Shown piece after piece: positions 25,992 through 43,432 of a stretch of 64,000 nucleotides of DNA. Position numbers and translations under genes: made by a program. How positions within the stretch are numbered: position 1 is the first letter of the stretch; each line of letters begins with the position of its first letter. Below the pieces are notes generated by a model, which saw only the letters and a list, made by a program, of their open reading frames with translations, was not told the origin of the DNA and did no database searches. Source of the DNA: Proteus penneri (lineage in GTDB: Bacteria; Pseudomonadota; Gammaproteobacteria; Enterobacterales; Enterobacteriaceae); the NCBI RefSeq assembly GCF_003144535.1, contig NZ_PHFJ01000012.1, positions 1 to 64,000 of the forward strand. Reading direction: 5' to 3'.

Positions 25992-26390
25992 TTATTGTAC
26001 TCTCCATGCTTTAATCGGTTTATTGCTCACAGCACGAACACCATCTGTTGAAACTGCCCATAGCTTGCCACCCCATAACACACCCAGCGTTTTCCCTTCA
26101 TCTCCTTCAAACATCACAATGTCGCCACGGCTTGCGTTACTTGTTGGGATTTCATCAAAAAAACGACCAACCGCCTTCTCTAATGTCCCGAACTCTTTTT
26201 GTAATACTCTGAATGCACCTGTTTTTGTTTTGTAACGCCCACGAATGTTTTCACAAGGATCGAAATCGCAAACAGCGATGACGCAATTAGAAGCAAACAA
26301 ACAACAGTCATGCTCACCCCATGCAAAAGGGCGATTTATGGCATTCTTTAAGGTTTCAGGTAGGCGAGTAGTCCATTGTGGGTGTCTCAT
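25992..26390 (-). CDS. Tail-tip assembly protein, DUF6950-like
   Basis: About 132 residues from ATG 26390, chosen for its TGGAGAAAA ribosome site and because upstream residues are unlikely. It contains PFAWGEHDCCLFASN, DPCENIRGRYKTKTGAFRVL and RGDIVMFEGDEGKTLGV, an NlpC-like pattern (Cys, then His-containing turns) seen in small phage proteins placed where lambda has gene K. It probably helps assemble or penetrate with the tail tip. A strong terminator lies just upstream of its ribosome site. Confidence 0.7.
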   Translation of the reverse strand: MRHPQWTTRLPETLKNAINRPFAWGEHDCCLFASNCVIAVCDFDPCENIRGRYKTKTGAFRVLQKEFGTLEKAVGRFFDEIPTSNASRGDIVMFEGDEGKTLGVLWGGKLWAVSTDGVRAVSNKPIKAWRVQ

Positions 26391-26407
26391 GGTTTTCTCC
26401 AGACAAT

Positions 26408-26430
26408 AAAAAAACCCGCCGAAGCGGGTA
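26408..26430 (-). terminator. Intrinsic terminator inside the tail operon
   Basis: On the minus strand ACCCGC, loop TTCG, GCGGGT is followed by seven T. It begins 18 bases after the lipoprotein gene stop, and its T tract ends 18 bases before the next ATG. The UUCG tetraloop makes the stem very stable. Confidence 0.85.
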
Positions 26431-26447
26431 TTTATATTCATTTTCTT

Positions 26448-27056
26448 TTACAGAGGATTTCTTTCTTTTTTACACTCTAAATTTAACTTTTCTACAGCTT
26501 GATCTATGGTATTTTTATTTTCTTTCGGCAAGAATGCTTGCAACATCCAAATCGTATACCCGTACTCGGTTTTATGTCCAGCTAGAATAATGTTCTTATT
26601 TTCCAAATCAAAATAATAAACATATTCAAATAATTTATCGTCTTCTTTTTTTCTAGTTGGTTCCCCGTATTTTAATTCAAGATTACTTAGCATTTTTTTA
26701 AAGTCTATATCATATATTTCTTTATCTTTTATGAAGTAATAATAGTCCACACCCATAAGGCCGTTAAAATTAATTACTTTATTTTCTGGCAAAAATATAA
26801 GTGTGTAGGTTTCATTTTTATTATTCAAACCATTGGGTAGACTTTCAGATTTAACTTTAATAAATGGACAGCTTTCTTGATTACTTAAAATTTCAATATC
26901 GTTTCCTATTTCTTTCTTAAGTTTATTTATAGACATACCCCATTCTAGGCCAAAGGGAGCGTTATATTTATTTTTATCTGATTCGGATTTATAACATGAA
27001 ACTAAATTAGGTAAAATTAAAAGTATGGATAATAAAATAATAATATTTTTTTTCAT
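26448..27056 (-). CDS. Phage-encoded lipoprotein (moron)
   Basis: The 202-residue protein has a lipoprotein signal peptide: KK start, hydrophobic IIILLSILLILPNL, lipobox L-V-S-C with Cys21. The mature part contains FGLEWGMSINKLKKEIGNDIE and YGEPTRKK, a pattern of small bacterial lipoproteins that link a W-G-M-S turn with a later YGEP. It is much more AT-rich than the tail genes around it, is not part of the lambda tail order, and is closed by a terminator. Phage-encoded lipoproteins in such places often alter the lysogen surface, for example by superinfection exclusion; that role is an inference. Confidence 0.7.
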   Translation of the reverse strand: MKKNIIILLSILLILPNLVSCYKSESDKNKYNAPFGLEWGMSINKLKKEIGNDIEILSNQESCPFIKVKSESLPNGLNNKNETYTLIFLPENKVINFNGLMGVDYYYFIKDKEIYDIDFKKMLSNLELKYGEPTRKKEDDKLFEYVYYFDLENKNIILAGHKTEYGYTIWMLQAFLPKENKNTIDQAVEKLNLECKKERNPL

Positions 27057-27079
27057 TTAATCGACACCAAAAATCAGAG

Positions 27080-27661
27080 TTATTTATAAATAAACGCAGG
27101 TGCATTTTTCTTGCTACCCCAATAAATAGCCCGATCAGCCATCTGCGCCACATAACGAAATATCCTATCGCCATTTTTACGTTTAGACCATGATTCATCA
27201 GTAAATCTGTCGGGTAAACCATAAGACCATCGTTCAAATCGATTAGAAACGGTGACGGCTATTTCATTTTCTTCGCCTGTTGTCACGCCAATTGTGGATA
27301 TTTGGCCAGCAAATAAAACCTCAGCAAGTGCAGGTTTCCCCTCTTCATTTAATGCAACTAACATCAACTGCGCATTTCTCCCACGAACTCGCTCATTCAT
27401 CACCTCGCCAATTAATGAAGAATCGAAACCTGAGAGTTTCATGATAAGCTGTTGTGGGCTTGTGGTCATATTTTCTCCCACAGACTCAATTGCACCAAAC
27501 TGGCCAACACCTTGGTAAATTTCACCTGCAATAATGATATTACCCACACCGGTATGTGCACGCACCACGCCTGATTTAAGATCTAAACGAGAGGCAACAA
27601 CTAAATAATATCCCTCATTAATTGCCTTAACCATATCATTACTAAATGGATGATATTTCAT
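27080..27661 (-). CDS. Phage tail protein (DUF2163-like / minor tail)
   Basis: A 193-residue protein with KSGVVRAHTGVGNIIIAGEIYQGVGQFGAIESVGENM and a later NRFERWSYGLPDRFTDESWSKRKNGDRIFRYVAQMADRAIYWGSK. The end motif with F-x-D and a final Y/W block is typical of small conserved tail proteins preceding the NlpC-like gene. It likely contributes to the distal tail. It overlaps the upstream tail gene by four bases. Confidence 0.7.
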   Translation of the reverse strand: MKYHPFSNDMVKAINEGYYLVVASRLDLKSGVVRAHTGVGNIIIAGEIYQGVGQFGAIESVGENMTTSPQQLIMKLSGFDSSLIGEVMNERVRGRNAQLMLVALNEEGKPALAEVLFAGQISTIGVTTGEENEIAVTVSNRFERWSYGLPDRFTDESWSKRKNGDRIFRYVAQMADRAIYWGSKKNAPAFIYK

Positions 27662-28257
27662 GTTAATGCTTCCTCGAATGACAAAGAAGTGCTAGTAAGT
27701 ATGCCCGGTTTACGTTGGAAATTACCCTGATCGTTACTAGTTAGTTTAAAAATACCGTATGGCGCTTCATTTTCTATCAAATCATTTACCGCCGGTGCAT
27801 AACGTAATATAGGGGCAATAGGAATTGTTGCGTTTCCTTGTGCATCACTAATCACATTAGCCGTCACTCGCTTTAGTTCATCATTTACCGTGATATAATC
27901 ACCAATGCGTAAAACAATGCTATTGGGTAACCAGTCTTTACTTTCTAATAATTTTCCAGATTGATTGGGTTGGCTAACTTTAGGTTTACCGCGTTGAGTT
28001 AAACCAGAACGCGCCCAATCACTAATTTTCACTCGACCACTTTCACCATCTAACTCGGCAACAAACGCCTCTAAAACCCTTGCTTGCTCATCGGTCAAAT
28101 TATTAAATGACATACTGCAACGCCAACGCGAGCCGGGAAAGCGTACTGTCTGCACACTCCCCGTAAAAGTTGATGTAAAGGTTTTACTGTTACTCACGAG
28201 TTGCCAGCTTAATGAGGCTGGCACGATGGATTGTGGCCACAATAATATCGTTGCCAT
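27658..28257 (-). CDS. Phage distal tail protein
   Basis: The 199-residue product begins MATILLWPQSIVPASLSWQLVSNSKTFTSTFTGSVQTVRFPGSRWRCSMSF and continues LTDEQARVLEAFVAELDGESGRVKISDWARS, a recognisable pattern of small siphophage tail proteins located between tape measure and tip. It starts at the base preceding the tape-measure stop. The precise structural role is not known. Confidence 0.7.
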   Translation of the reverse strand: MATILLWPQSIVPASLSWQLVSNSKTFTSTFTGSVQTVRFPGSRWRCSMSFNNLTDEQARVLEAFVAELDGESGRVKISDWARSGLTQRGKPKVSQPNQSGKLLESKDWLPNSIVLRIGDYITVNDELKRVTANVISDAQGNATIPIAPILRYAPAVNDLIENEAPYGIFKLTSNDQGNFQRKPGILTSTSLSFEEALT

Positions 28258-31200
28258 TTATCGTAGGTTCCTTCTTAATGTTCCATTGGTTTGAAAATCT
28301 CGCATAATGTCAGACTTCGCTTTTGAAGCGCCTTGCTCAGCTCCTATTCTTGCTGCTTCCTGCATAGCTTGATAAAGCGCTTCATCGCCATTACCTGTCA
28401 CATGAAATGTTTGATGAATAATGGTATCGCCTGACGCAATAGAGTTGCTTCCGGTTGCTCTAACGCCTAAAGAGCCATCAGGTCCACGTTTTAAAGGCAT
28501 GATCGCCTCGCTTCCAGCTTCCCCCATCAAGCCAAGATTAGGCGTACCGCCTTTTGCAAAGGCAAATAATGTCGGTGAACTCACCACCTGATTGCTATAC
28601 TGGCTAAGGCTTGGTGAACTATAAACATCCCCTTTAGCGTTTGCTTTTACACCCACTTTACCCGCTTTAGCGCCACTTGCTGCACCGCTACTGCCACCAG
28701 CAAAACCACCCATTAATCCCGTCAATGCATTGGTAATTTGAGCCTGAATAGCAATACGAATAAGATCAGAAATGATTGAACTAGCTAATGATGAAGAAAA
28801 TTCCTTAATGCCTTCTGAAAAAGATTTCGTTCCCATTAACATTCCGGTCATCATATTCGCGGTTCGTTGCTCAACAGCATCAACTAAATTCATTTGCATG
28901 CGTTGCCACATACCTTGGGAGGCATATAACTCTTTGCTTGATTGATATTGTGCTTCTTTTGACTTATTTGTAGCCGCAATAACTAACTGTTCATAACGTT
29001 CTTTGCTAACTAAACCATCTTCATAGTAAGCCTGATAAAGCGCTTTTTGTTCTTCCAGTTGATTTCTTAGTTGAATAACCGGATCTATTTCACCAAGGAT
29101 ACTGATATTAGGGAGAGAAATGCCTTTTGCTTGCTCTGATAAACGATATTTTGTCGTATCTTGTGCCATTTGGCGCCGTGCATATTGGTATTCTTTTTCA
29201 GTCAACAATTGCTGTTCAAAGAGTGATTTAAGCTCTTTCGTCATCTCCTGTTCATTTCGGATGGAGGCGCGCATAGGGGAGTATTTTTCTGCCAATTCTG
29301 CACGCTGTTTCATGTGGTTTTCAGCATTGAGCGTTTTTAATCGCTCATACTCTGCTTTTTGCATACCACCAGCTTTCAAATTTTCTTGAAGTTTGCGCAT
29401 CGTCTCAGACTCACTCAACGATATACGCTCTAAGCTGGTTGCGTGCTCTTGCTCTATTTGCATACGTAATTGATGGTATTGATTCACTTTTTGTTTAGAG
29501 CCCGAAGTTAAATCATTACCACCGCCACCACTCCCCCCATCTCCTACTGGTTTGTCGTCTTTGGTGGGTTGACTAAAAACACCTTTTTCTATGGCTTCTT
29601 TTGTTCTTGTTTGTCGTTGATATTGAGTCTCTAAATCCTTATTTATATCTTCTAATTTTCCTAACGCACTTCGCCTATTTCGCAGTACCTCTTCAGGATC
29701 ATCCCCAAAAGCACTGACCATAGCGTTACCAAACCAACCGCTATCTTTTATTTCTGACATCGAGGTTTGTCTATCTTCGGAATATCTAGCTAACTCACCA
29801 TAGATTCGAGATTTCTCAGCTTCTAATAAAGAAATATTTTCTGCGATTTCATCAGCCTGTATTTCTAATTTGACTCGAGATAAACGCTGAAGCTCTTCTA
29901 TTGTTTCAGCAACTGAGCCCCGTAAACCATCAACCTTCAACTTAGCTTCATCAGCTTTAGTTGCAAAATAATAAATGGCTGAACCCGCTAAAGCCAACAC
30001 ACCAACTGGCCCACCTAAGGCGGAAACAACACTTCGGAGTCCTAAGCTAGATGCTCGTAATGCCCTTTGGCTATATGAAAGTCGATTATTAGCTGCTGTA
30101 AGCTGATCGGTATATTTGGATCTTAACGCTAATGCTTCCGCTTCCTGCCTCACAAGACGATTTCGTTCACTCGCTAATCCTTGCATCTGTAAACCATGCC
30201 GATTCATTATGGCGCTCTGTTGAGTCAATGCCTGACCTTGCTGAGCAAGTTTATTAATGGTGGCATCAGCTGAAGCAATCCCTCTTCTGGCGGTTTCAGC
30301 CTGTTGCTTAGCATTACTTCTGACTGCTGCTTCATTTTTCACCCATTCTTTGGTTTGCTCTTGAAGCCCTCTAGTCATTCTGGCACCGATGACAGGTAAA
30401 ACAGCGTAAGTTGCAATATTAGCTAAAGTTGAGAAGTTATTGTTTAGTGCATTTACAGCGGAAGTAACATTCTGAACACCTGTTCGTAAAGGACCATCGG
30501 CACTCGTTCCAACTTTGATAGCCAATCCCTCAAACGACCTTTCCATTACCTCCAAGTCAGCATTTAGATTTTGTGCCCTTTTCCCTGCTTGCTCATACGC
30601 TGTTTCGGTATCAGTAAGCGCCTTAGTTAAATCAACTAGCTGATCCCGATTTTTAACTAAAATGGTGCCTGCGCTGACATTGGCGCGACCAAATATCTTT
30701 GTCGATGCAGTAGTGGAATAGTTTTTCTTGTCGAGGTTTTCTAATGCCGTGGCCAAACCCACAACAGATGGACGCAAGTTTTTATCGGCTGAACGTTCTA
30801 ATGCTAAAAAGACATTACGCAACATTGTTCCTGCCGTTTCGGCCTTGATCCCTTTTCCAGCTAAAACTTGAATAGACGCATTAAGTTGTTCAAATGAGAT
30901 GCCGGCTTGAGAAGCAACGGTGCCACTTTTCACAATGGCTTGGGCTGTTTCGTTTATTTCAGATGCACCGTATTTCGCACCTGCTGCTAACACATTAATG
31001 TAACGCTCAGATGAGACAGCTGACTCACCAAACTGATTGAGACTTAAGGTAAGAGATTTCGCCGCATCGGCTAACTCAACACCTGAAGCTTGCGCCAAGG
31101 TAATCGATTTAGCCGTTACCTCTTCTAAGGCACCTGCTGTCTGCAGTAATGACGGTTTTGCTGACGCAATGAGTTTCATCGCATCCGCGACTTTTATTGC

Positions 31201-31563
31201 GCCAAATTCCGTTGTTCGCCCCATTTCTTGAGAGGCAATACTGTACTCTTTCATGCGCTCAATAGACGCACCAGTAATCGCACTCAGATCAGAAATTGCC
31301 TGACTATACTTGCGAGAAATATTTAAAATGCTACCAATGGATAAACTCACTCCACCTAACATTGCCAGCCTTCCTGCAACATTGGTCACCTGATGACTAA
31401 TTGAGTAAAAACCATCCGCAACCGCTTTTGTTTCACGTTTTGCTTTATTAGAAAAACGCTCTGTTTCTCGCCCTGCATGATTTAATGCGCCGGATATATT
31501 GCTTCTAAAACTGGCGTCATTCAGCAATAGTCCAACCCGTAAATCGGCTAAATTAGTGGCCAT
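28258..31563 (-). CDS. Tail tape-measure protein (TP901-type core)
   Basis: At 1101 residues this is the longest tail gene after J. It has the tape-measure core SQEMGRTTEFGAIKVADAMKLIASAKPSLLQTAGALEEVTAKSITLAQASGVELADAAKSL at about 110-170, long heptad-rich coiled coils, hydrophobic segments around 520-540, and a C-terminal FAKGGTPNLGLMGEAGSEAIMPLKRGPDGSLGV motif found at the end of many tape measures. It sets tail length and is ejected with the DNA. The ribosome site follows the G/GT chaperone pair. Confidence 0.9.
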   Translation of the reverse strand: MATNLADLRVGLLLNDASFRSNISGALNHAGRETERFSNKAKRETKAVADGFYSISHQVTNVAGRLAMLGGVSLSIGSILNISRKYSQAISDLSAITGASIERMKEYSIASQEMGRTTEFGAIKVADAMKLIASAKPSLLQTAGALEEVTAKSITLAQASGVELADAAKSLTLSLNQFGESAVSSERYINVLAAGAKYGASEINETAQAIVKSGTVASQAGISFEQLNASIQVLAGKGIKAETAGTMLRNVFLALERSADKNLRPSVVGLATALENLDKKNYSTTASTKIFGRANVSAGTILVKNRDQLVDLTKALTDTETAYEQAGKRAQNLNADLEVMERSFEGLAIKVGTSADGPLRTGVQNVTSAVNALNNNFSTLANIATYAVLPVIGARMTRGLQEQTKEWVKNEAAVRSNAKQQAETARRGIASADATINKLAQQGQALTQQSAIMNRHGLQMQGLASERNRLVRQEAEALALRSKYTDQLTAANNRLSYSQRALRASSLGLRSVVSALGGPVGVLALAGSAIYYFATKADEAKLKVDGLRGSVAETIEELQRLSRVKLEIQADEIAENISLLEAEKSRIYGELARYSEDRQTSMSEIKDSGWFGNAMVSAFGDDPEEVLRNRRSALGKLEDINKDLETQYQRQTRTKEAIEKGVFSQPTKDDKPVGDGGSGGGGNDLTSGSKQKVNQYHQLRMQIEQEHATSLERISLSESETMRKLQENLKAGGMQKAEYERLKTLNAENHMKQRAELAEKYSPMRASIRNEQEMTKELKSLFEQQLLTEKEYQYARRQMAQDTTKYRLSEQAKGISLPNISILGEIDPVIQLRNQLEEQKALYQAYYEDGLVSKERYEQLVIAATNKSKEAQYQSSKELYASQGMWQRMQMNLVDAVEQRTANMMTGMLMGTKSFSEGIKEFSSSLASSIISDLIRIAIQAQITNALTGLMGGFAGGSSGAASGAKAGKVGVKANAKGDVYSSPSLSQYSNQVVSSPTLFAFAKGGTPNLGLMGEAGSEAIMPLKRGPDGSLGVRATGSNSIASGDTIIHQTFHVTGNGDEALYQAMQEAARIGAEQGASKAKSDIMRDFQTNGTLRRNLR

Positions 31564-31565
31564 AA

Positions 31566-32170
31566 TTATCTTCCTATCATTTTCATTACGTCAGAACATT
31601 GCTGTTCAACAGATTTAGAGGTGGTTGTGGATTGATGTGGATTTTCAGGTGAGGGATTGTTTTTAGGTGGCACAACTACGCCTGCCTTTTCTGATTTAAG
31701 CGTAAAATAAGCCTGCCAGCCTAACAAGGTATTGGCAGGCAAATTAAGGACACGATAGGGATCAATTTCTCCCAATTCTTCAGAAAGTTGATAAGCAAAG
31801 TAGAGTAACGGGCTATCCGTTAGTTTTTTTTTGCCTCGTCTAACGTGCCAATGGAGTGTTGCTTCACGACGTTAATTGCCTCAATGAGGATCGCATTATC
31901 ATGAACATTCACCAGCTCTTCAGGTTTGGGTAATAACGACTTATTGATTGGCTTACCTTCATCATCAACCAAGCAATTCAGCAACATACCTACGTTTCGT
32001 AATGACGCCTCACGTAATTTGCCATGTTGATTTAATTCAGAAACCTCAAGTTCCAAATTCATCAACTCGTTAGCCGTCATACGACGAATGTTTACCTTTA
32101 CTCCACATAGAATATCGACTTCGATAATTTGAGGTTTCGCTGTAAGTAAAGAGGCTTTTAATCCTTTCAT
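31566..32170 (-). CDS. Tail assembly chaperone GT made by -1 frameshift
   Basis: The upstream frame (gpG-like, 32170 to 31820) ends GTLDEAKKN. At 31823-31829 the minus strand reads A AAA AAC in register, the strongest bacterial slippery heptamer. A -1 slip enters an uninterrupted frame reading LTDSPLLYFAYQLSEELGEIDPYRVLNLPANTLL and ending at 31566. The extension lacks its own ribosome site, so the fusion product is expected, as for lambda gpGT. The pair lies between the tail tube and tape-measure genes, the canonical position. Confidence 0.85.
31820..32170 (-). CDS. Tail assembly chaperone G (unshifted product)
   Basis: About 116 residues from ATG 32170 (AGGAGA ribosome site; ATG overlaps the tail-tube stop as TAATG). 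It reads MKGLKASLLTAKPQIIEVDILCGVKVNIRRMTANELMNLELEVSELN, a typical small tail chaperone. It binds the tape measure during tail assembly. A fraction of ribosomes should shift into the GT extension. Confidence 0.85.
   Translation of the reverse strand: MKGLKASLLTAKPQIIEVDILCGVKVNIRRMTANELMNLELEVSELNQHGKLREASLRNVGMLLNCLVDDEGKPINKSLLPKPEELVNVHDNAILIEAINVVKQHSIGTLDEAKKN
31823..31829 (-). promoter_or_regulatory. Programmed -1 ribosomal frameshift site
   Basis: The heptamer A AAA AAC lies in frame (GCA AAA AAA AAC TAA), with the zero-frame stop immediately after it and the -1 frame open for about 85 codons. Confidence 0.85.
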
Positions 32171-32643
32171 TAACCCTGATCTCCTGTTGATGTTGCAGAA
32201 GAAGTTCCCCATACAAGGTTATTTTGTTTACCTTTAACGGTGATCTGGATGGCTTCATTGGCTGGTGCTGAAATGTCATTCAATTCCCAGCCTGATAATG
32301 AAAGGATCATCGTTGCGGTACGTTTATTAGGAAGCTCACAGTAAAACTGCACCGTTTCACGCTTTTCTGCTGCATTCAAGAACGCAGCAAAGTTTTCATT
32401 TTCAGGGTCGTCAATAAAGCCTAACGACTTTTCAGGTCCTTCCGGTAAATCAGAAATAAATTGCTTGTTTTTATCAATGAGTGTCGTGACATCAACAAAG
32501 CTCCCTGATTGTCCTGTGGCACCTAATGCCTTACAGTTAACCAGTGGCTTCATTTGCTCAACGGTGTCACCCGCTTTACCAAATTTAACGACAGTACCAG
32601 CAGGTAGCATGGCGTATTCTGGCGATGTTTTTTGATCTGCCAT
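32170..32643 (-). CDS. Major tail (tube) protein
   Basis: About 157 residues from ATG 32643, selected because of its GGAGTGAAAAT ribosome site. It contains GTVVKFGKAGDTVEQMKPLVNCKALGATGQSGSFVDVTTLIDKNKQFISDLPEGPEKSLGFIDDPENENFAAFL, a pattern of lambda V-like tube subunits (GATG...DVTTL...D.P). Its subunits stack to form the tail tube around the tape measure. Confidence 0.82.
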   Translation of the reverse strand: MADQKTSPEYAMLPAGTVVKFGKAGDTVEQMKPLVNCKALGATGQSGSFVDVTTLIDKNKQFISDLPEGPEKSLGFIDDPENENFAAFLNAAEKRETVQFYCELPNKRTATMILSLSGWELNDISAPANEAIQITVKGKQNNLVWGTSSATSTGDQG

Positions 32644-32654
32644 TATTTTCACTC

Positions 32655-33758: not shown

Positions 33759-33764
33759 GTTTCC

Positions 33765-34067
33765 TCACAGGTTTATATGGCGATAAGGATCGAGTAATAA
33801 CTTAAATCCTGCGGGTAACACGGCCGTTTCTCTATTTTCATAGAAATTTCCAACCGCTAGCATAAGAGCTAACTCAATATCATCAGTGATTAATAAACCG
33901 TCAGGATCTTCCTCTGGAATATCTTTTTCATAGAGATGTCGATTGATATACCCTTCAGCTCGTTGCTTTGCCGCCATCAGATAAGTTTTTAGCAACTCAT
34001 CTTCTAATGTATTGCCCTCATCCAATCGACATTGCTGCTTTAATTTTTCTAGTGTGGGTAGTGGCAT
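33765..34067 (-). CDS. Head-tail connector protein (HK97 gp6-like)
   Basis: About 100 residues from ATG 34067 (GGGGGA ribosome site), reading PLPTLEKLKQQCRLDEGNTLEDELLKTYLMAAKQRAEGYINRHLYE and a final LPAGFKLLLDPYRHI. The pattern L..LK..LR.D......D..L......A......I is typical of gp6 connectors. Upstream residues to 34142 look like leader DNA containing two hairpins. Confidence 0.82.
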   Translation of the reverse strand: MPLPTLEKLKQQCRLDEGNTLEDELLKTYLMAAKQRAEGYINRHLYEKDIPEEDPDGLLITDDIELALMLAVGNFYENRETAVLPAGFKLLLDPYRHINL

Positions 34068-34080
34068 AAATCCCCCAATA

Positions 34081-34129
34081 CCTGCGACCATCCTGATCGC
34101 AGGCACAAAAAAACCGCAATTAAGCGGTG
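34081..34129 (-). terminator. Terminator plus second hairpin after the capsid gene
   Basis: On the minus strand ACCGC-TTAAT-GCGGT is followed by seven T (34107-34113), an intrinsic terminator just after the capsid stop. A second hairpin, CCTGCGA with TCGCAGG, follows at 34081-34103 before the connector ribosome site. It would reduce transcription past the abundant capsid message. Confidence 0.75.
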
Positions 34130-34152
34130 ACTGGTTTATCACTTGTTAATGC

Positions 34153-35388
34153 TTATTTCGTGCTACTGGCACCTTTACCCACTAATGCCTTAATAGCAGA
34201 AGTATCTTCAAGCACACAATCAAAGCGATGGAAAGCTAAAAACGCAGTTTGGTCATATTCTGCGTAACGTTCAACTAAACGCTTCAGGGTCATGTAGGTC
34301 ACACGACGTAAAATGAATCGGTCAAAGTCACCGCAGAAGATGAATTTTTTACCGGCTTCCATTTTGTCGATAGCCTGATCAACAACATATTGCATACCTA
34401 AAATTTGAGCAGGTGCGACACCCGAAATAGACGGAAGCCATAAAGGGCGTTTTTGCGCATCTTCCATTAACTTTAGGTTTTTCAACGTATCATCATTAAA
34501 AGCAAGACGGAATTTAGGGCTATTACGGTACGCAGGGTCAATCGCATGTTCTAACTCGGTAATATCTTTCCAACTTAATGAGGCGCCGGCTACATCAACC
34601 GTATTTGTCACTGAGGTTTCTAAACCTGATGGCTGTACAGGTGATCCTTTTCCAGTGCCTTTAATCAAGTATTTAGCTTCACCACGACCAATGCGTTGAG
34701 CAATACGTGAAGCCAGATACGCTTGAATATCTACACCACTGTCTTGCAATAATTCATTGGAAACGCGGATAATTTTCGATGTTAACTTTTTAGCTCCTAA
34801 AATGGCCGTGCCAAACTCAACATCTTGTTCACCTGCTGCGGTGTTTTCGCCTAACAATTCCCCTTCTTCATCAGTACCATCGGATGTTGACCAGGTAATA
34901 TCTTGACCGGTGGCAGTTGATAAAATTTGAGCCACACTTGCGATACCACCATAGGCTTTCATTTGATCAACAATTTTATTTAACATCTGAGTAGGAACGG
35001 TATAGCCACCTTTCTCATCGGGCGAAGTACCCTGTGCACGAAGTTCTTTGACCGCTTGGCGTTCTTCTGCAGTGAGCTCACCAAAACCACAGCGCAGGAA
35101 GCGGTCAAACGCTTGATTGCGACGCTCTGCTTGCTCTGTTTCAGGGTTATTCGGTTGTTGACCACGCTGTTCTTTCTCTTTGTCATCAACCAAGTCTTGA
35201 TCTAATGAGCGTAGTTGCTCTTCACGCTGAATCTGAGCATCTAAATTTTCAAGTTCAGTTTGCGCTTTATTCCATTGAGTGCGTTGCTCTTCAGTCATCA
35301 CACCATCACCCACTTTTTCGTGAATGGCGCGCATATCAATCGCAATAGTGTTACGTTTTTGTTTTAATTCATGAAGCTTCATAGTCAT
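34153..35388 (-). CDS. Major capsid protein, HK97 fold
   Basis: The 411-residue protein begins with a charged coiled-coil scaffolding (delta) domain of about 100 residues (MKLHELKQKRNTIAIDMRAIHEKVGDG...NLDAQIQREEQLRSLDQDLVDDKEKE). The capsid domain follows, with GTSPDEKGGYTVPTQMLNKIVDQ, GAKKLTSKIIRVSNELLQDSGVDIQAYLASRIAQRIGRGEAKYLIKGTGKGSP and GDFDRFILRRVTYMTLKRLVERYAEYDQTAFLAFHRFD. The prohead protease upstream should remove the delta domain at about residue 100. Confidence 0.95.
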   Translation of the reverse strand: MTMKLHELKQKRNTIAIDMRAIHEKVGDGVMTEEQRTQWNKAQTELENLDAQIQREEQLRSLDQDLVDDKEKEQRGQQPNNPETEQAERRNQAFDRFLRCGFGELTAEERQAVKELRAQGTSPDEKGGYTVPTQMLNKIVDQMKAYGGIASVAQILSTATGQDITWSTSDGTDEEGELLGENTAAGEQDVEFGTAILGAKKLTSKIIRVSNELLQDSGVDIQAYLASRIAQRIGRGEAKYLIKGTGKGSPVQPSGLETSVTNTVDVAGASLSWKDITELEHAIDPAYRNSPKFRLAFNDDTLKNLKLMEDAQKRPLWLPSISGVAPAQILGMQYVVDQAIDKMEAGKKFIFCGDFDRFILRRVTYMTLKRLVERYAEYDQTAFLAFHRFDCVLEDTSAIKALVGKGASSTK

Positions 35389-35397
35389 AGTATTACC

Positions 35398-37222: not shown

Positions 37223-37373
37223 GTTTCCCCCTCATAGCTACCGCCAAGGCATAGGTTATTGCAATGCAACCACCGATAATCAGCGTGTTAGCAACACCAT
37301 ATTTTAGATAACACCCCGCCATAACCGCACCAACGCCAGCCAGTGCAGTGATATCAAGTAATAAGTTTTTCAT
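37212..37373 (-). CDS. Small two-segment membrane protein between terminase and portal
   Basis: A 53-residue product, MKNLLLDITALAGVGAVMAG then CYLKYGVANTLIIGGCIAITYALAVAMRGKRVN. Two hydrophobic segments (about 5-22 and 28-47) suggest a membrane hairpin. ATG 37373 overlaps the terminase stop (ATGA) and its TGA overlaps the GTG start of the portal gene, so it is coupled on both sides and is very likely expressed. Small membrane proteins at this site occur in other HK97-type phages; the function is unknown. Confidence 0.65.
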   Translation of the reverse strand: MKNLLLDITALAGVGAVMAGCYLKYGVANTLIIGGCIAITYALAVAMRGKRVN

Positions 37374-39103
37374 AGGAATAAAAGGTCTTCGTTAGGATCT
37401 AAAGAGGAAAGGAAGTCACCACCACTGCCACCATTCACCAATAATCGACTCATGCCTGTAAATAGTGCAACAGGACCGTCTATTTTTGCCTCGGGTGTGG
37501 ATTTATTAGGGAAAATATTGTCGTTTTTATCCGGTTTAACCGTGACGTTCGACATCATCCAGTTCATAACAGGGTGTTGACCATGATGAAACTTACCCGC
37601 ATAAACCAGTGCTTCAATCTCTTTCATGGACTCAGAAAAGTTACGCACCGTTTGAGCTACTTCTACAAGGGGTAGCCCTTCTTCAGCCAGTGATAAACTA
37701 AATTGTGTCGCACTCCATGGGTCAAAACCCAGTTCGTTTAAGTTCTCGCCAGTCACCCATTCAATGATTTCTTCTTTAATTTGAGCATGATCAACAACTT
37801 CACCATCGGTTAACGTGAGATACCCCATATCGGCCCATTTGCGATAGAGTTCCGCCATTTGTTTAGAGCAACGCTCAAGCCGGTCTTCGGGTAACCAAAA
37901 CTTAAAATCAGCATGAACATGACCGTTATCAGGTTGTTTCCATACTTTAGCTGCCGCACAAATATCAATTTTATTAGCAAGGTCAACACCGACCCATAAC
38001 GGATAAGTTTGTAATTCCTGTTGTGATGCAAGTTCAGGAGCACTATCCCACTTCATCATATCCATCCATGAAGATTCAGCCGTGACCCAAATATTCATGT
38101 GTTTAGTGAAGAAGTTAATCCGTGCAGAAACCTGCTCTTTGGCTTTCTTGGCTAAACGGCGTAAATCATCCCAGCGCTTACAAACACCGAGACCCGGATT
38201 CGCTTTTTGCCACACAGTTTCATCAAAGGGATCATCGTCTTTATCTAAGGTGTAAATAATGGCGAAAAACGAATCATCATCGACTTGGCCACGAAGCACT
38301 TTAATACCGTAATCCCGCAGTTCGTAACAAATCCCCTCTTTATTAAAACCCGCTGTGGTGATCCCAAAAAGAAGAGACTGCAGGCGCGCACCGGTGGCAG
38401 TTTCTAATACGTCCCACACATCACGAGTTTTGTGTGCATGCAGTTCATCAACAATGCCACAGTGAATATTTAAACCATCAAGGTTATTGGCATCACTGGA
38501 AAGCGGTTCAAACTTAGAGGCGGTTCTTTCTTGATAGATAGCGAGTTTATTAAACTCAAATAAACGACCTAGTGTCGCTTTGGACTTCTTCAGCATGTTC
38601 TTCGCATCTTCAAACACGATACGAGCCTGATCACGCGTTGTAGCTGCTGAATAAACTTCGGCACCACCTTCACCATCAGCACCGGTCATATAAAGCCCAA
38701 TACCTGATGACAATGTGGATTTTGCATTTTTACGTGCAACTTCGTTGTAAGCCGTGCGAAAACGACGAACAAAAACAACCTCACCGTCTTCATCTACAAC
38801 TTTTTTACCCGTTTGTTCATCAATTAACGGAATAACAAAGCCAAAAATATTAATTAAAATAAAAACATGCCAAGGCATTAAATCAATGGGCTTACCGGCT
38901 AATGCCCCTTTGACATGAGGAATAAAACTGTAAAAATCGAGTATGTGCTGTGCGCGATCTTCAATGAAATAGATGCCACGCTCAAGCCCATGCTCTAAAT
39001 CATTCAAAAACCGTTGGCACGCTAAACGTACCAGTTCGCACGCAACAATTTCTCCAGCAACCACCTGTTCGGCGTACTGAATTCCATCTGCTACGTTTGC
39101 CAT
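37370..39103 (-). CDS. Terminase large subunit
   Basis: The 577-residue packaging motor has an ATPase domain with a Walker-A-like ARKNAKS at about 123-129 and Walker B GIVDE near 216-220, followed by the coupling motif SLLFGITTAGF. The C-terminal nuclease domain contains WVGVDLANKIDICAAAKVW and the conserved FDPWSATQFSLSLAEEG. It cuts concatemers and pumps DNA into the prohead. It follows the small subunit by three bases. Confidence 0.95.
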   Translation of the reverse strand: MANVADGIQYAEQVVAGEIVACELVRLACQRFLNDLEHGLERGIYFIEDRAQHILDFYSFIPHVKGALAGKPIDLMPWHVFILINIFGFVIPLIDEQTGKKVVDEDGEVVFVRRFRTAYNEVARKNAKSTLSSGIGLYMTGADGEGGAEVYSAATTRDQARIVFEDAKNMLKKSKATLGRLFEFNKLAIYQERTASKFEPLSSDANNLDGLNIHCGIVDELHAHKTRDVWDVLETATGARLQSLLFGITTAGFNKEGICYELRDYGIKVLRGQVDDDSFFAIIYTLDKDDDPFDETVWQKANPGLGVCKRWDDLRRLAKKAKEQVSARINFFTKHMNIWVTAESSWMDMMKWDSAPELASQQELQTYPLWVGVDLANKIDICAAAKVWKQPDNGHVHADFKFWLPEDRLERCSKQMAELYRKWADMGYLTLTDGEVVDHAQIKEEIIEWVTGENLNELGFDPWSATQFSLSLAEEGLPLVEVAQTVRNFSESMKEIEALVYAGKFHHGQHPVMNWMMSNVTVKPDKNDNIFPNKSTPEAKIDGPVALFTGMSRLLVNGGSGGDFLSSLDPNEDLLFL

Positions 39104-39106
39104 TCA

Positions 39107-39577
39107 TCATTTGCGCTTTTTCAAAAATGCCTCAAAAGGATCTTCTTCGGCGGGAGTGTTCATCGTGACTTTTGCTCGAGAAGCGGGAGTCATACCAAAT
39201 TCACTTAACATGGCACGAATACGTTTCCATGCGTCTGCCTTCATTGCAGCGGATGGATGCGCCTTTATCATCAATCCACTTTCTGTATTGTTTTTGTAGG
39301 TATAGCCTTCTTCATCGAGAACATCACAATGGTGTCGATATTCAGTATAAGCTTCGACGAGTAACTCCAATGCCTTGGCATCCATCTGACTCATGACACC
39401 CATTGCATCAAGTTCTTCAGCAATACGCTTAAACCAATACTTACCTTGCTTAGTGAAATGTTTCGGAGTTGGGGGTACCCCTTTTGGCGGTTTTGGCTCT
39501 TTTTTATTAATCGGTCGTTTTGATGGGTTCCCCCTCACCAATTGCAGATGTGACGGGGTTTTAGGCGGTCCAGCCAT
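39107..39577 (-). CDS. Terminase small subunit (P27 family)
   Basis: A 156-residue protein: PPKTPSHLQLVRGNPSKRPINKKEPKPPKGVPPTPKHFTKQGKYWFKRIAEELDAMGVMSQMDAKALELLVEAYTEY. The early GNPSKRP and the PP.L...A...W....EL...G......D.. pattern define the P27 family. It binds the packaging start, probably the GC-rich region immediately upstream. Confidence 0.93.
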   Translation of the reverse strand: MAGPPKTPSHLQLVRGNPSKRPINKKEPKPPKGVPPTPKHFTKQGKYWFKRIAEELDAMGVMSQMDAKALELLVEAYTEYRHHCDVLDEEGYTYKNNTESGLMIKAHPSAAMKADAWKRIRAMLSEFGMTPASRAKVTMNTPAEEDPFEAFLKKRK

Positions 39578-39603
39578 AATAGAAATCTCCTATCAATAAT
39601 CGC

Positions 39604-39703
39604 TTGGGGTTCCCCAAAAAAAGTTTTCTAACCTGCGGTGATGTGAAAAGAGGTAAGGGGGCGGTCCTAGGTGGCGAGAATGGTAGGGATTTGACCCGCC
39701 CCT
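39604..39703. other. Putative cos / packaging region
   Basis: Between the HNH and small terminase genes lies a GC-rich block out of character with its surroundings. It has a perfect TTGGGG-TT-type palindrome (39604-39617), and opposed GGGGGCGGTC (39657-39666) and GACCCGCCCC (39693-39702) arms around a 26-base centre. HK97-type phages with an HNH protein beside terminase keep cos here. The cut site itself cannot be seen. Confidence 0.5.
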
Positions 39704-39790
39704 CCTCCCTATACGTTATAATTTCAAGATGAAGATAAATATTTTTACAGGTTTATTTAATTAATATATATCAATAGGTTATATTTAATA

Positions 39791-40138
39791 TTAGATTCTT
39801 TCTTTTGCGGTCTTAGTTCTATGGCATGGAATACATAACGACTGAAGGTTCTCTTCCGCATCGGTACCCCCATGCGCCTTAGCAATTATATGGTCAACTG
39901 TTTTGGCTTCGGTGGCTCGCCCTGATCTTAAGCATTCTTGACAGAGATACTTATCACGCTTGAGTATACGTGCTCGTAGCTTATCCCATTGGGTACCATA
40001 ACCACGTTGATGACGAGACTTACCGCGCTGGTGGGTTTCCCATCCTAAGTTCTGATGGTCTTCACAGTAACCGTTACGTTCTGTTGTTGTCTTGGCGCAT
40101 CCCTGTTTACGACATGCGCGAGGTATACGAGGTGGCAT
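39791..40138 (-). CDS. HNH endonuclease next to terminase
   Basis: The 115-residue protein has zinc-binding pairs (C9/C14 region, C24, CQEC at about 76-79, and CIPCH near the end) and an HNH core DHIIAKAHGGTDAEENLQSLCIPCHRTKT. HNH proteins in this position work with terminase in cos cleavage and head maturation in HK97-like phages (family knowledge). It is the first gene upstream of the putative cos block. Confidence 0.92.
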   Translation of the reverse strand: MPPRIPRACRKQGCAKTTTERNGYCEDHQNLGWETHQRGKSRHQRGYGTQWDKLRARILKRDKYLCQECLRSGRATEAKTVDHIIAKAHGGTDAEENLQSLCIPCHRTKTAKERI

Positions 40139-40203
40139 ATAATCTCCTGTAATCTAAAGAGGCGAATAATCCTCATTGATTTTAAAGGCGGGATTTCTCA
40201 CCT

Positions 40204-40581
40204 TTACTTCTGACTACACCACGTTCTGTTATTTATCTCGTTCGTAAGTTTAGCCCACGCATAACGTTCAATTTCTCTCGCCTGCATTAGCTGATTGATA
40301 CCTGCATCCTGTCGATCAGCTCGCATACGTAAATCTGCTAGCTGAGCATTGATGTCATGCTCTGACTTATTACTGACAAGCACACCTTTGAATTCAGCAG
40401 AATTAATAAAGGCATCTTTAATAAAAAATTCACCAGAAGACTGAAAGAAGAATGGTGGGATTGATTTAGGCTTCACACCTACATCTTGCATTAGTTGCTT
40501 AATACGATTGAGTTGTTCTTCTAACTTATCTAACTCACTTGTATCCACTGAGACTTTTAATTGAATAGTGTTATCTGACAT
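40204..40581 (-). CDS. Conserved-looking phage protein of unknown function
   Basis: About 125 residues from ATG 40581, which has a GGAGATAG ribosome site. It starts SDNTIQLKVSVDTSELDKLEEQLNRIKQLMQDVG, a short beta strand then a coiled coil, and ends in another helical stretch. It was not recognised. A terminator hairpin lies 14 bases upstream of the start codon, so its transcription probably requires antitermination or a local promoter. Confidence 0.6.
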   Translation of the reverse strand: MSDNTIQLKVSVDTSELDKLEEQLNRIKQLMQDVGVKPKSIPPFFFQSSGEFFIKDAFINSAEFKGVLVSNKSEHDINAQLADLRMRADRQDAGINQLMQAREIERYAWAKLTNEINNRTWCSQK

Positions 40582-40594
40582 ATCTATCTCCAAT

Positions 40595-40622
40595 AAAAAA
40601 ACCACCAGTTATTAACTGATGG
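40595..40622 (-). terminator. Intrinsic terminator just upstream of an ATG
   Basis: Minus strand CCATCAGTT-AAT-AACTGGTGG (one mismatch) followed by seven T. The T tract ends 14 bases before ATG 40581, with the GGAGA ribosome site immediately after it. Confidence 0.75.
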
Positions 40623-40672
40623 CTATCTAAATAAACTCTATCAACGCCACTCAATAAATGACGTTTGTAGAA

Positions 40673-40753
40673 TTAATTATGTCTCTCCATAGTCACGCCG
40701 TTTCTTCTCTCATAGCTGACGTTGCTACCCGTACTAGAACTGAGTGGATTCAT
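40673..40753 (-). CDS. Candidate 26-residue small protein
   Basis: A short frame MNPLSSSTGSNVSYERRNGVTMERHN lies in the 293-base gap between two phage genes. It has no membrane segment and only a weak ribosome site. Reported as a candidate only; the gap otherwise holds hairpins. Confidence 0.25.
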   Translation of the reverse strand: MNPLSSSTGSNVSYERRNGVTMERHN

Positions 40754-40837
40754 TGTTTTTGATTCTCACTATGCGCTATCCGTCGAGAATAAAACAGGTC
40801 ACTGCTAACATAGGAGACGGCGACAATGCGACGCATT

Positions 40838-40862
40838 AAAAAGCCCCGCTATTGCGAGGCTC
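40838..40862 (-). terminator. Intrinsic terminator after the lysis region
   Basis: On the minus strand AGCCTCGCAATAGCGGGGCT is followed by TTTTT. It begins soon after the gene ending at 40899. Its sequence is nearly the same as the hairpin at 45077-45104. Confidence 0.8.
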
Positions 40863-40898
40863 GTTGTTGTTCAATTTCCCGTATTGCTTTCTTGTTGG

Positions 40899-41192
40899 CT
40901 AAATTTTGAGTTTATCAATCTCTTCATGATCTGGTCGACGATAATTCAGGATGTAACCTGGCATCTTCATAAACCTATTATTTTTGTCTTTTGCACTCAC
41001 TACTACTGAATGGCAAACAGATGACGTGTCGAATGTTTCATCATATTCATACAATAAAGCCGCCATTTTATCTTGCCATTCAGTAGGCATTTCATGCATG
41101 AGAACTCTTGGCATGACTAGAAATGATGCATAAGACAATCCAAACCAATTCCACAATTCACTGCTATTTTTTGACTGTGTTGCCTTACTCAT
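40899..41192 (-). CDS. Phage protein of unknown function downstream of spanins
   Basis: About 97 residues from ATG 41192. It contains SSELWNWFGLSYASFLVMPRVLMHEMPTEWQDKMAALLYEYDETFD and a later MPGYILNYRRPDHEEI. Proteins with this W-F-G-L-S-Y-A-S and MPR-MHEMP pattern recur in enterobacterial prophages near lysis or packaging genes, as far as I recall, without known function. It ends the lysis block before a terminator. Confidence 0.65.
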   Translation of the reverse strand: MSKATQSKNSSELWNWFGLSYASFLVMPRVLMHEMPTEWQDKMAALLYEYDETFDTSSVCHSVVVSAKDKNNRFMKMPGYILNYRRPDHEEIDKLKI

Positions 41193-41207
41193 TTTAAACA
41201 CTCCGTT

Positions 41208-41471
41208 CTAATGTAGATTTAAAGTACTTCTAGCTGACTCGATATCGCGGATAGCCTTCTTGTCTGAATTACATTGCTCAATAACCGATAACAGGGAGAT
41301 ATTTAACATTAACGATTCTCCCCATGTCATTTGTTTTGGTATATAGGGCAATAGACAATCAGTGGTTAGGTGTGCTGGTATCGCTATGTGCTCCACTGGC
41401 ACGTATTCTTTCTGAATGGTCGTGCATCCTGATAAGAGCGTCATTAGGAATAGCAGTATTGGCACAATCAT
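41208..41471 (-). CDS. Rz1-like outer-membrane spanin lipoprotein
   Basis: The frame has a lipoprotein signal (MIVPILLFLMTLLSGC) with lipobox L-S-G-C, followed by TTIQKEYVPVEHIAIPAHLTTDCLLPYIPKQMTWGE. The start is taken at ATG 41471 so that the signal sequence is N-terminal. It overlaps the Rz-like gene in another frame and extends past it, the usual spanin arrangement. It links to Rz across the periplasm to fuse the membranes at lysis. Confidence 0.75.
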   Translation of the reverse strand: MIVPILLFLMTLLSGCTTIQKEYVPVEHIAIPAHLTTDCLLPYIPKQMTWGESLMLNISLLSVIEQCNSDKKAIRDIESARSTLNLH

Positions 41472-41736
41472 TATTGATAAGAACAGTTTTGATAACCGTT
41501 TTAACTTTTTCAGAATCCACGATTGACCTATTCCGCTCTTCGCTATTAAGTGATGAGACATTGTTGATAATCCTGAATGTTCGGTTGGCGTTTTCTGTGA
41601 TTGAGTTTTGGCGTGAGAGTTGCTCGGTGAGCGATTGGTTTTCTTTGCTCAGTTCACCAACTTTTACAACTAAGTATTGGAGTAAAAAAACACAAATCAC
41701 AGAGCCAATTAAAAGAACCCATTTACCAATACTCAT
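41359..41736 (-). CDS. Rz-like inner-membrane spanin
   Basis: About 125 residues from ATG 41736 (overlaps the upstream stop as ATGA). It has an N-terminal membrane anchor WVLLIGSVICVFLLQYLVV followed by a coiled-coil-forming periplasmic region KVGELSKENQSLTEQLSRQNSITEN. This is the class II inner-membrane spanin subunit acting in the last step of lysis together with the embedded Rz1-like lipoprotein. Confidence 0.78.
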   Translation of the reverse strand: MSIGKWVLLIGSVICVFLLQYLVVKVGELSKENQSLTEQLSRQNSITENANRTFRIINNVSSLNSEERNRSIVDSEKVKTVIKTVLINNDCANTAIPNDALIRMHDHSERIRASGAHSDTSTPNH

Positions 41737-42137
41737 AACAACAACCAAGCATCTTCAAACACTTTCAGACTGTATGGCTGATATCCAAGCTCAACACCAA
41801 CAATCGCTGTGGCCAATGCAATAGCAACCGGTTTAGATGAAACATTAATAGGCTCATTTACGCTAACACCAATATCTTTAGCTGCTCGATTGATGTAGCC
41901 AACTGTGTTGTTTTCATTTGGTGGCGCATACCGATCGATAATCGACTCGACAGTGTTGAGTTCGTATTTCTTTTGGTATGTCTGCAGTAATTTATAAATT
42001 GCCCGAATACCATATTCAGGTGATACGAATTGGCAGAAGCTCGGATCTGTTTGCTGTGCGGATAACCCTTGCCATTTCGAACCGTGTCTAATGTTGCCTG
42101 GATTATTATTGCGCTCACCGCGTGCAGGTCTAGCCAT
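41733..42137 (-). CDS. Endolysin-slot protein with NPGNIR motif (P5-like structural/lytic)
   Basis: A 134-residue protein beginning ARPARGERNNNPGNIRHGSKWQGL, then PSFCQFVSPEYGIRAIYKLLQTYQKKYELNTVESIIDRYAPPNENNTVGYINRAAKDIGV. Such proteins are often named structural protein (P5-like). It lies exactly between holin-like and Rz-like genes, and no other lysozyme or amidase was found in the prophage, so it probably supplies the muralytic activity. No signal peptide is visible. The activity is inferred from position. Confidence 0.7.
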   Translation of the reverse strand: MARPARGERNNNPGNIRHGSKWQGLSAQQTDPSFCQFVSPEYGIRAIYKLLQTYQKKYELNTVESIIDRYAPPNENNTVGYINRAAKDIGVSVNEPINVSSKPVAIALATAIVGVELGYQPYSLKVFEDAWLLL

Positions 42138-42417
42138 TTTTACTAACCCCTCTAAATATTTGCATCACATTCCCACGACTAAGAATTATTAGTGCGCATA
42201 GCGTGATATTGATTCCGACTTCAAATGGATCTGCATGCGTGTAGTCATTCGTTAATATTCGTAACGGAATCGAACCTAGTAGAATAATGAGTACCCACGC
42301 TATAAATGACGGGATAAATTTATATTTAGCACCGTTACGGTCATAGTTAATGAGTCGAATAACAGCAAGCAGACATGAGAAAAAGTTGATGTAAATCCAA
42401 AACATTGAGATGGTCAT
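42130..42417 (-). CDS. Putative holin (three membrane segments)
   Basis: The 95-residue protein has three hydrophobic segments: about 5-21 (MFWIYINFFSCLLAVIRL), about 34-53 (FIPSFIAWVLIILLGSIPLRI) and about 66-82 (VGINITLCALIILS). This is a 3-TM holin layout. It overlaps the endolysin-slot gene by eight bases and the preceding membrane-protein gene by four. Confidence 0.75.
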   Translation of the reverse strand: MTISMFWIYINFFSCLLAVIRLINYDRNGAKYKFIPSFIAWVLIILLGSIPLRILTNDYTHADPFEVGINITLCALIILSRGNVMQIFRGVSKNG

Positions 42418-42803
42418 CTTCCACCTCCTCTGAATTTATCTATCAGGTTGTTAATAAACTTATTTATTCCGTCAGTCATTGCACCCGGCTTTGATATTGA
42501 AACTAAAACACCCACCAGCCCTGCTGACGAAAACATTGCCCCTACTGATTTATCAACATCACGACCACCTGTTATATCGCTAAGAATACCCGACATAAAA
42601 TCAGCGCCATAAATACCAATAAGGAAAGCAACCGCGAAATAAGTCCAACGCTTTAATAGACGAACATCATGAGCAGATAAAACAAAAATAACAGCTCCCG
42701 CAAACGCCCCAATAACAACGCCAGCATCCATACCAGCAAACAGGCCTACAATTGAAACGCCCGCTAGCGATGCTGTTGTAGTGCCCGTTAACGGCTCATT
42801 CAT
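42414..42803 (-). CDS. Putative second holin/antiholin membrane protein
   Basis: A 129-residue protein with hydrophobic segments at about 13-40 and 50-75 and a third amphipathic one, flanked by charged ends (NEPLTGTTTASLAGVSIVGLFAGMDAGVVIGAFAGAVIFVLSAHDVRLLKRW). It resembles Gly/Ala-rich phage holins. Two membrane proteins in tandem before the endolysin slot suggest a holin/antiholin pair; which plays which part is unknown. Confidence 0.65.
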   Translation of the reverse strand: MNEPLTGTTTASLAGVSIVGLFAGMDAGVVIGAFAGAVIFVLSAHDVRLLKRWTYFAVAFLIGIYGADFMSGILSDITGGRDVDKSVGAMFSSAGLVGVLVSISKPGAMTDGINKFINNLIDKFRGGGR

Positions 42804-42964
42804 ATGTGTAGTCCTGTTATTTGGTTAAAAAGGTGCAGACACACAGCTCTTGTGTGAAGTGTTTAATGTGTGATTGATACTGTGGTCGGCATGTATGAAT
42901 GAGTGGTGGGCACAACTCCACCTAGTGTGCAATTATCGACATCTCTGCACGAGGCTTTCTATAA

Positions 42965-43099
42965 TTAATGAAATACAGCTCGCCAATAAGCTTTATATTT
43001 AGATCGGGTAACGAAATAATGAAATGACCAAGCTAGATTTAATTGCTCTTTAGTCTTACCAGATAGCTTTATACATAAATTAATAAATAAATTTTTCAT
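42965..43099 (-). CDS. Small phage protein
   Basis: A 44-residue frame from ATG 43099 with a GGAGAAAA ribosome site: KNLFINLCIKLSGKTKEQLNLAWSFHYFVTRSKYKAYWRAVFH. It has an amphipathic basic helix and was not recognised. A terminator lies 13 bases upstream of the ATG. Confidence 0.5.
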   Translation of the reverse strand: MKNLFINLCIKLSGKTKEQLNLAWSFHYFVTRSKYKAYWRAVFH

Positions 43100-43111
43100 A
43101 TTTTCTCCAAT

Positions 43112-43135
43112 AAAAAAGGCCACCGAAATGACCTT
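43112..43135 (-). terminator. Intrinsic terminator just upstream of an ATG
   Basis: Minus strand AAGGTCA-TTTCGG-TGGCCTT followed by TTTTTATTGGAGA. The hairpin overlaps the end of the preceding gene, and the ribosome site of the next follows the T tract. Confidence 0.75.
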
Positions 43136-43382
43136 ACTGGCAAGCTTTTCTGCCTCTGGAAATAACCCGAACAGTATCACCTGTTACTGTCGTAATGTAA
43201 GCATGATCTGTACGCTTAATATCAAATGATGGGATGGCGTCTTTCTTTGTATGTTCAACCCGCGCCACAATATCTTTATTTTCTGATTCAGGATAAAACT
43301 CTAAGCGGTACATACCCCCTAAGCAGTGGACTTCTTCCACTTTACGTCCTTCACGTTCAGTAATTAATTTAAGTGCGTACAT
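43134..43382 (-). CDS. Phage protein of unknown function
   Basis: The 82-residue product MYALKLITEREGRKVEEVHCLGGMYRLEF continues as a predicted all-beta small domain ending VTGDTVRVISRGRKACQ. It has an AAGGAAC ribosome site and was not recognised. It lies among short accessory genes between the late regulator and the lysis cassette. Confidence 0.55.
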   Translation of the reverse strand: MYALKLITEREGRKVEEVHCLGGMYRLEFYPESENKDIVARVEHTKKDAIPSFDIKRTDHAYITTVTGDTVRVISRGRKACQ

Positions 43383-43410
43383 AATTTCGTTCCTTATTTT
43401 AGATAATAAA

Positions 43411-43432
43411 AAAGACCGCCTAGGCGATCTTT
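43411..43432 (-). terminator. Intrinsic terminator between small phage genes
   Basis: Minus strand AAAGATCGCC-TA-GGCGGTCTTT (one mismatch) runs into a six-T tract, 26 bases before ATG 43382. Confidence 0.72.

Follow-up and report, generated by a model that had tools for sequence, protein, structure and literature searches.

Predicted intrinsic terminators as fixed borders in the late operon of an HK97-like prophage of Proteus penneri, probably crossed by Q-loaded polymerase

Terminators inside phage late operons have been described before, and their role has been called unknown in print: in the part of the phage L report consulted, the authors use this word for the intra-operon terminators of that phage and name partial termination as one possibility (PMC8022706). 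For the pid locus of phage P22, an excerpt of the published study states that a mutation in the terminator stem weakened the pid transcript, and that the terminator matters for transcript stability (PMC8835761). On the side of antitermination, the phage 21 protein (Q21) and lambda Q are described, in a section of PMC9378689, as narrowing the RNA exit channel and restricting hairpin folding. Here, we consider a 64,000-nt stretch of Proteus penneri DNA (contig NZ_PHFJ01000012.1, positions 1 to 64,000; hereafter the window), in which the late genes of an HK97-like prophage occupy the minus strand from about 45.8 kb down to 22.6 kb. An initial annotation of this DNA had pointed to five hairpins with T tracts, each placed before a start codon, as a recurrent cassette of the prophage. 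We propose, with a probability of roughly 0.65, that these elements are ordinary intrinsic terminators that stand as fixed borders in a Q-controlled late operon, and that Q-loaded polymerase reads through them.

All five sites carry the described minus-strand hairpin and T tract, with a start codon downstream, and at two of them (43116 and 40600) the T tract does continue into ATTGGAGA. The description needs one amendment at 34113, where a second hairpin (34103-34081) precedes the ribosome site. A terminator was scored as a hairpin of -7 kcal/mol or lower followed by at least 6 T in 8 bases, and the minus strand of region 22572-45800 was compared with 200 dinucleotide shuffles. Seven strong terminators were found on the late strand, against a shuffle mean of 0.77 (standard deviation 0.85, maximum 3); the two beyond the five named sites are Tx and the tR'-like terminator (Table 1). 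When a Shine-Dalgarno (SD) sequence and a start codon were required within 65 nt, five remained, against a mean of 0.18 and a maximum of 2, so the enrichment over shuffled sequence that had been named as a test is borne out. In this count, T4 entered through a TTG as the first match of the script, and its true ATG, with GGGGGA, likewise lies within 65 nt. Two hairpins are close to the limit (-7.5 kcal/mol at 34113 and -7.9 at 43135), and the whole-element folds have z values from -1.9 to -4.0; 13 of 200 shuffles folded equally well for the element at 43135, and 6 of 200 for that at 43432. An AT-rich genome with many T runs could be expected to yield some hairpin-T layouts by chance or composition, and short intergenic gaps in part force the nearness of terminators to starts. 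Nonetheless, none of the 200 shuffles reached seven, and the terminators are conserved across relatives, by which we regard a compositional artefact as refuted. G+C-bearing hairpins directly 5' of T tracts are thus present beyond chance, as in intrinsic terminators, and they lie between co-directional late genes, a short distance 5' of the next start. That the next ribosome site begins within or just after the T tract would follow from the tight packing of the genes.

Table 1. Coordinates of terminators, neighbouring genes and promoter hexamers in the late operon of the window
Feature	Position	Strand	Context
Terminator T1 hairpin	43432-43411	-	T tract into ATTATCT; SD and ATG 43382 of phrog_33497 gene
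Terminator T2 hairpin	43135-43116	-	TTTTTTATTGGAGA; ATG 43099 of 44-aa open reading frame (ORF)
Terminator T3 hairpin	40624-40600	-	TTTTTTTATTGGAGA; ATG 40581 of phrog_34403 gene
Tx, extra terminator	40862-40841	-	Without SD-supported start within 65 nt
Terminator T4, post-capsid hairpin	34128-34113	-	Next start ATG 34067 (head-tail connector gene)
Second hairpin	34103-34081	-	Between T4 and ribosome site of connector gene
Terminator T5 hairpin	26433-26410	-	Between variable cargo gene and DUF6950 gene; ATG 26390
tR'-like terminator	45103-45080	-	Directly 3' of Q-like gene
Major capsid protein gene (PF05065)	34153..35388	-	Upstream of T4
Head-tail connector gene (PF05135)	33765..34067	-	Downstream of T4
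202-aa cargo ('moron'-like) gene	26448..27056	-	Upstream of T5
DUF6950 gene	25992..26390	-	Downstream of T5
DUF1133 N-terminal ORF	45399..45734	-	Frame broken
DUF1133 C-terminal ORF	45184..45456	-	Overlaps N-terminal ORF
pR'-like promoter hexamers TTGACT / TATAGT, 16-nt spacer	45180-45153	-	Sigma-70-like, 3' of Q-like gene

The same layout is widespread in well-known phages. A scan of both strands of ten whole sequences, with ten shuffles each, for a hairpin, T tract, SD and start within 45 nt gave 9 layouts in lambda, 5 in HK97, 7 in HK022, 3 in N15, 4 in P22, 7 in ES18, 9 in phage T1, 0 in Mu, 6 in IME1369_02 and 5 in the window, with shuffle means of 0.0-0.5; these whole-genome counts also cover early regions and include some intragenic sites. 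The five of the window are terminators T1, T2, T3 and T5 together with one at 52687, outside the late operon, T4 being missed because GGGGG is not in the SD list of the scan. GenBank records of known phages already mark such terminators. In the HK97 record (AF069529), seven sites between rightward late genes are labelled as putative terminators; each stops 6-14 nt short of the following start, and the one at the capsid junction (5192-5213) is followed by a start at 5219. The records of N15 (AF064539) and ES18 (AY736146) contain similar series, most of them within about 35 nt of a start and some at least 70 nt away. Several terminators in the phage T1 record (AY216660) are directly followed by an annotated ribosome site, and the Mu record has one terminator 3' of the capsid gene. 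The layout is therefore a common late-operon feature and not new; with 3-9 layouts in eight of nine reference phages, the idea of a cassette special to this prophage had to be given up. Our literature searches, whose texts did not include the HK97 genome paper, returned no paper describing the layout as a recurrent unit, and we do not claim its absence from print.

Comparison with relatives, which are themselves related to each other, ties the terminators to particular junctions. Upstream of T5, the conserved late genes are interrupted by an additional gene, which relatives lack or replace with another, as in a moron slot; the 202-aa product found here has no match in Pfam or PHROG, and just weak promoter consensus matches lie near its gene. 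In the 18 window-family loci in which the genes on both sides of the slot are present, the DUF6950 gene is preceded by T5, while the intervening cargo ORFs differ in size. The exceptions in this slot are L033, another prophage of the same genome with other hairpins, and L111, of the HK97 family, with a 9-nt gap and none. DUF6950 junctions were scored in 39 of 41 loci: where the gap reaches 100 nt, a terminator was present in 31 of 32, and where it is narrower, in 0 of 7. Among the 31, L297 has the terminator and no cargo ORF that we could find; L287, the single wide-gap junction scored as lacking a terminator, has a T run with an imperfect hairpin; and of the seven small-gap loci, six match the query at 33-50% identity and the seventh over 18 residues. 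The K-I junction of the HK97 family has a terminator in 73 of 79 cases (79 of 80 loci scored). At the chaperone-tape measure slot of the same family, for which 68 of 80 loci could be scored, 31 of the 32 junctions whose gap measures 100 nt or more carry a terminator, and the association between cargo and terminator remains (Fisher p 0.015, uncorrected for kinship).

The junction behind the capsid gene bears on the alternatives. The HK97 and N15 records annotate a terminator at this junction, and in the window family a terminator follows the capsid gene in all 26 loci scored (of 27). In an alignment of 16 junctions (14 of these 26 loci plus L047 and L065), the T4 stem except its first base, most of the loop and the T7 tract are invariant in 16/16, and the 5' flank varies. 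One may ask whether such elements are partial terminators, or attenuators, that set stoichiometry by reducing transcription past abundant structural genes, whether or not Q is present. The position behind the capsid gene, which is annotated in this way in the HK97, N15, phage T1 and Mu records, would fit this proposal, as would the terminator that borders the major tail gene, on one side or the other, in the records of HK97 and N15 and that precedes it in 64 of 80 HK97-family loci, the layouts of phage T1, which has no recognised Q, and the mention of partial termination in the consulted part of the phage L paper (PMC8022706). Against it, T1-T3 and T5 adjoin small, unnamed or cargo genes that are not known to be abundant, and a T tract satisfying our rule follows the capsid gene in just 1 of 80 HK97-capsid-family and 13 of 80 N15-capsid-family loci, although the printed strings show a hairpin. 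We therefore hold a stoichiometric role to be possible and rather doubtful. Full terminators do occur elsewhere in these families: before the capsid gene of the N15 family in 79/80, before the major tail gene of the HK97 family in the 64/80 just given, and near the portal-protease junction in 76/80. As a separate observation, 74 of 80 N15-family loci (L179-L258) carry a terminator-like hairpin with a T-rich tail about 2.5-2.75 kb before the end of the capsid gene, which in N15 coordinates would fall inside gene 5, just 3' of the portal gene.

A second alternative is that the hairpins act on RNA, protecting the 3' end of the upstream message or insulating the next ribosome site, with termination secondary; RNA processing or insulation had also been offered in the initial annotation. 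The N15 capsid family gives this idea its footing. There, GGCCC..GGGCC is kept (judged by eye) in all 37 distinct printed junctions and the T tract varies or is lost; the distinct-junction listing yielded no HK97-family junctions under its start rule. The N15-family stem (24 of the 37 junctions; alignment A3) has 10 cells with two-sided changes, a number that 0 of 500 shuffles equalled. The second, non-terminator hairpin at the post-capsid site of the window, in which one two-sided compensated pair (A-U to G-C) occurs in 2/16 junctions, points the same way, and so does the effect of the P22 pid terminator on transcript stability reported in the excerpt of PMC8835761. The covariation is thin, however: just two pairs of the A3 stem carry the two-sided changes, a number reached by 108 of 500 shuffles, the single such pair in A2 is matched by 130 of 500, and slid controls of A3 also yield up to 2 pairs. 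Elsewhere the T tract is kept with the stem, as in T7 in 16/16 and the terminators at 31/32 T5-type junctions. An RNA-level role as the main function appears improbable; the processing or insulation of the initial annotation keeps some support from the post-capsid hairpin of the N15 family. Known regulatory RNAs were dropped as an identity, as an Rfam search gave four matches, all far below gathering scores.

For the reading as intrinsic terminators crossed by Q, a candidate antiterminator is at hand. DUF1133 (PF06576) also matches phrog_753, 'anti-termination protein Q-like', and a profile built from 8 intact DUF1133 relatives matches phage 21 Q in the Protein Data Bank (PDB) with an E value of 1.5e-7, which makes the two sequence relatives; a table in PMC8136144, a source seen in part, already tags a DUF1133 protein 'Q antiterminator HHPred'. 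Intact copies occur in the related prophages L047 and L048, where the promoter hexamers and the tR'-like terminator are both kept, the latter with a changed loop. The hexamers and terminator 3' of DUF1133 look as a pR'-tR' pair would, and an antiterminator is likely, with the DUF1133 protein as the candidate. As to promoters between a terminator and the next gene, a scan by consensus alone gave 31 promoter-like sites, where 51.3 were expected. A 304-aa phrog_7003 gene (44161-45075, +) runs in the other direction between terminator T1 and the tR'-like terminator. Among the nine phage records, profile searches placed PF03589 in lambda, HK97, HK022, P22 and ES18 and PF06323 in N15 and IME1369_02; the PF06530 and PF06576 profiles matched none of the nine, and phage T1 and Mu matched none of the four Q families.

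Under this reading, polymerases free of Q in a lysogen, whether from pR', from cargo genes or spurious, would stop at the border terminators, and after induction polymerase loaded at pR' with the Q21-like DUF1133 protein would cross every one of them. What we observe is that terminator sequences are present, enriched and conserved at fixed junctions, and that a Q21-like gene is followed by promoter and terminator sequences; from this we infer that transcription ends at these sites in vivo, that Q lets polymerase pass and that silencing is the role under selection. Several findings weigh against the proposal. The DUF1133 gene of the window is split into two overlapping ORFs, so that its reading frame is not intact. 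Phage T1 has its layouts, 7 of the 9 on the late strand, without a recognised Q; because of this, the layout does not prove antitermination, and the processive antiterminator of the initial annotation, plausible by the kinship of DUF1133 to Q, is not demanded by the layout alone. When the 81-nt T4 read-through RNA is folded, other pairing takes the place of most of the T4 hairpin. Finally, 27 of the 36 chaperone-tape measure junctions with a gap below 100 nt also have a terminator; cargo insulation is therefore not the whole role, and the terminator goes with the junction, not with the cargo. The rule 'terminator only where cargo is present', which the DUF6950 junction had suggested, is ruled out by these junctions. 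In the same read-through RNA (34065-34145, -), the G run of the following ribosome site is paired to the U tract of T4, mostly through G-U pairs, with the second hairpin enclosed between them.

The borders also coincide with breaks in similarity. When the late operon of the window was compared with relatives (leaving out L058, L061 and L022, which come from the window's own genome), 86 of 461 similarity endpoints fell in terminator zones, which cover 349 of 23,229 bases. This amounts to 246 endpoints per kb in these zones, compared with 72 per kb at the remaining gene junctions and 14 per kb elsewhere, a density that 2 of 2000 circular shifts equalled; the statistics are descriptive because loci overlap and are related (same-contig loci recur) and the endpoints are not independent. 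Prophages that otherwise differ repeatedly share short blocks containing little beyond the hairpin, its T tract and some flanking sequence. Among 180 occurrences with full flanks, a 23-mer of the post-capsid hairpin was seen in 32 contexts whose flanks are dissimilar; it appears in records of many gammaproteobacterial genera, for example Acinetobacter, Photorhabdus, Providencia and Colwellia, and in viral contigs, and the idea of a capsid-specific RNA element was rejected on this ground. The conserved flank of the hairpin, G[C/T]CT, recalls the TCTG box described behind terminator T runs. It is conceivable, and we offer it tentatively, that the hairpin-T-ribosome-site units are seams of the late operon, staying at their junctions as the genes on one side or both are swapped, and serving both as insulators that Q-loaded polymerase alone can cross and as shared short homology for module recombination, with the post-capsid hairpin drawn from a small stock of reused terminators.

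Some neighbouring features are recorded here for completeness. A non-coding block leading into T3 (40560-40730, -) has full or partial matches in 13 of 20 fetched prophage stretches, and a short one upstream of gene 42414-42803 (42817-42899, -) has matches in 17 of the 20. L034, L035, L050 and L051 share a recurring strong hairpin with a T run, behind which no ribosome site and start were found. In alignment with the window, the linear Pm34 phage record has its end at about 39663, just before the terminase small subunit gene, which suggests a cos site.

The comparison narrows the role of terminators inside late operons: they sit at fixed junctions, outlast the exchange of cargo and mark homology breakpoints, and at one junction the hairpin is retained, often without its T tract. 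HK97, N15, lambda and other laboratory phages lend themselves to direct tests of these patterns.

Set beside known systems, the operon of the window is closest to those of HK97, N15 and ES18, which also have terminators between co-directional late genes and in all of which Q-type families are found; HK97 and N15 share the terminator at the capsid junction too. It differs from the three in its hairpin sequences and in the second post-capsid hairpin, and its post-capsid T tract is strong, while that of most HK97-family and N15-family loci is weak. The late region of phage T1 is similar in having terminators followed by ribosome sites and unlike in its lack of a match to the four Q families. Phage 21 Q (PDB 6p18, 6jnx) is a sequence relative of DUF1133, albeit a distant one, and the copy in the window is broken. 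With phage L, a P22-like phage, the window has in common a terminator located within a late operon, which in phage L is assumed to have a single promoter, as the consulted part of that report has it (PMC8022706). The P22 pid locus, as portrayed in the excerpt of PMC8835761, is likewise an accessory phage gene followed by a rho-independent terminator, a moron with its own promoter and terminator; compared with it, the terminator of the window stays while the cargo changes.

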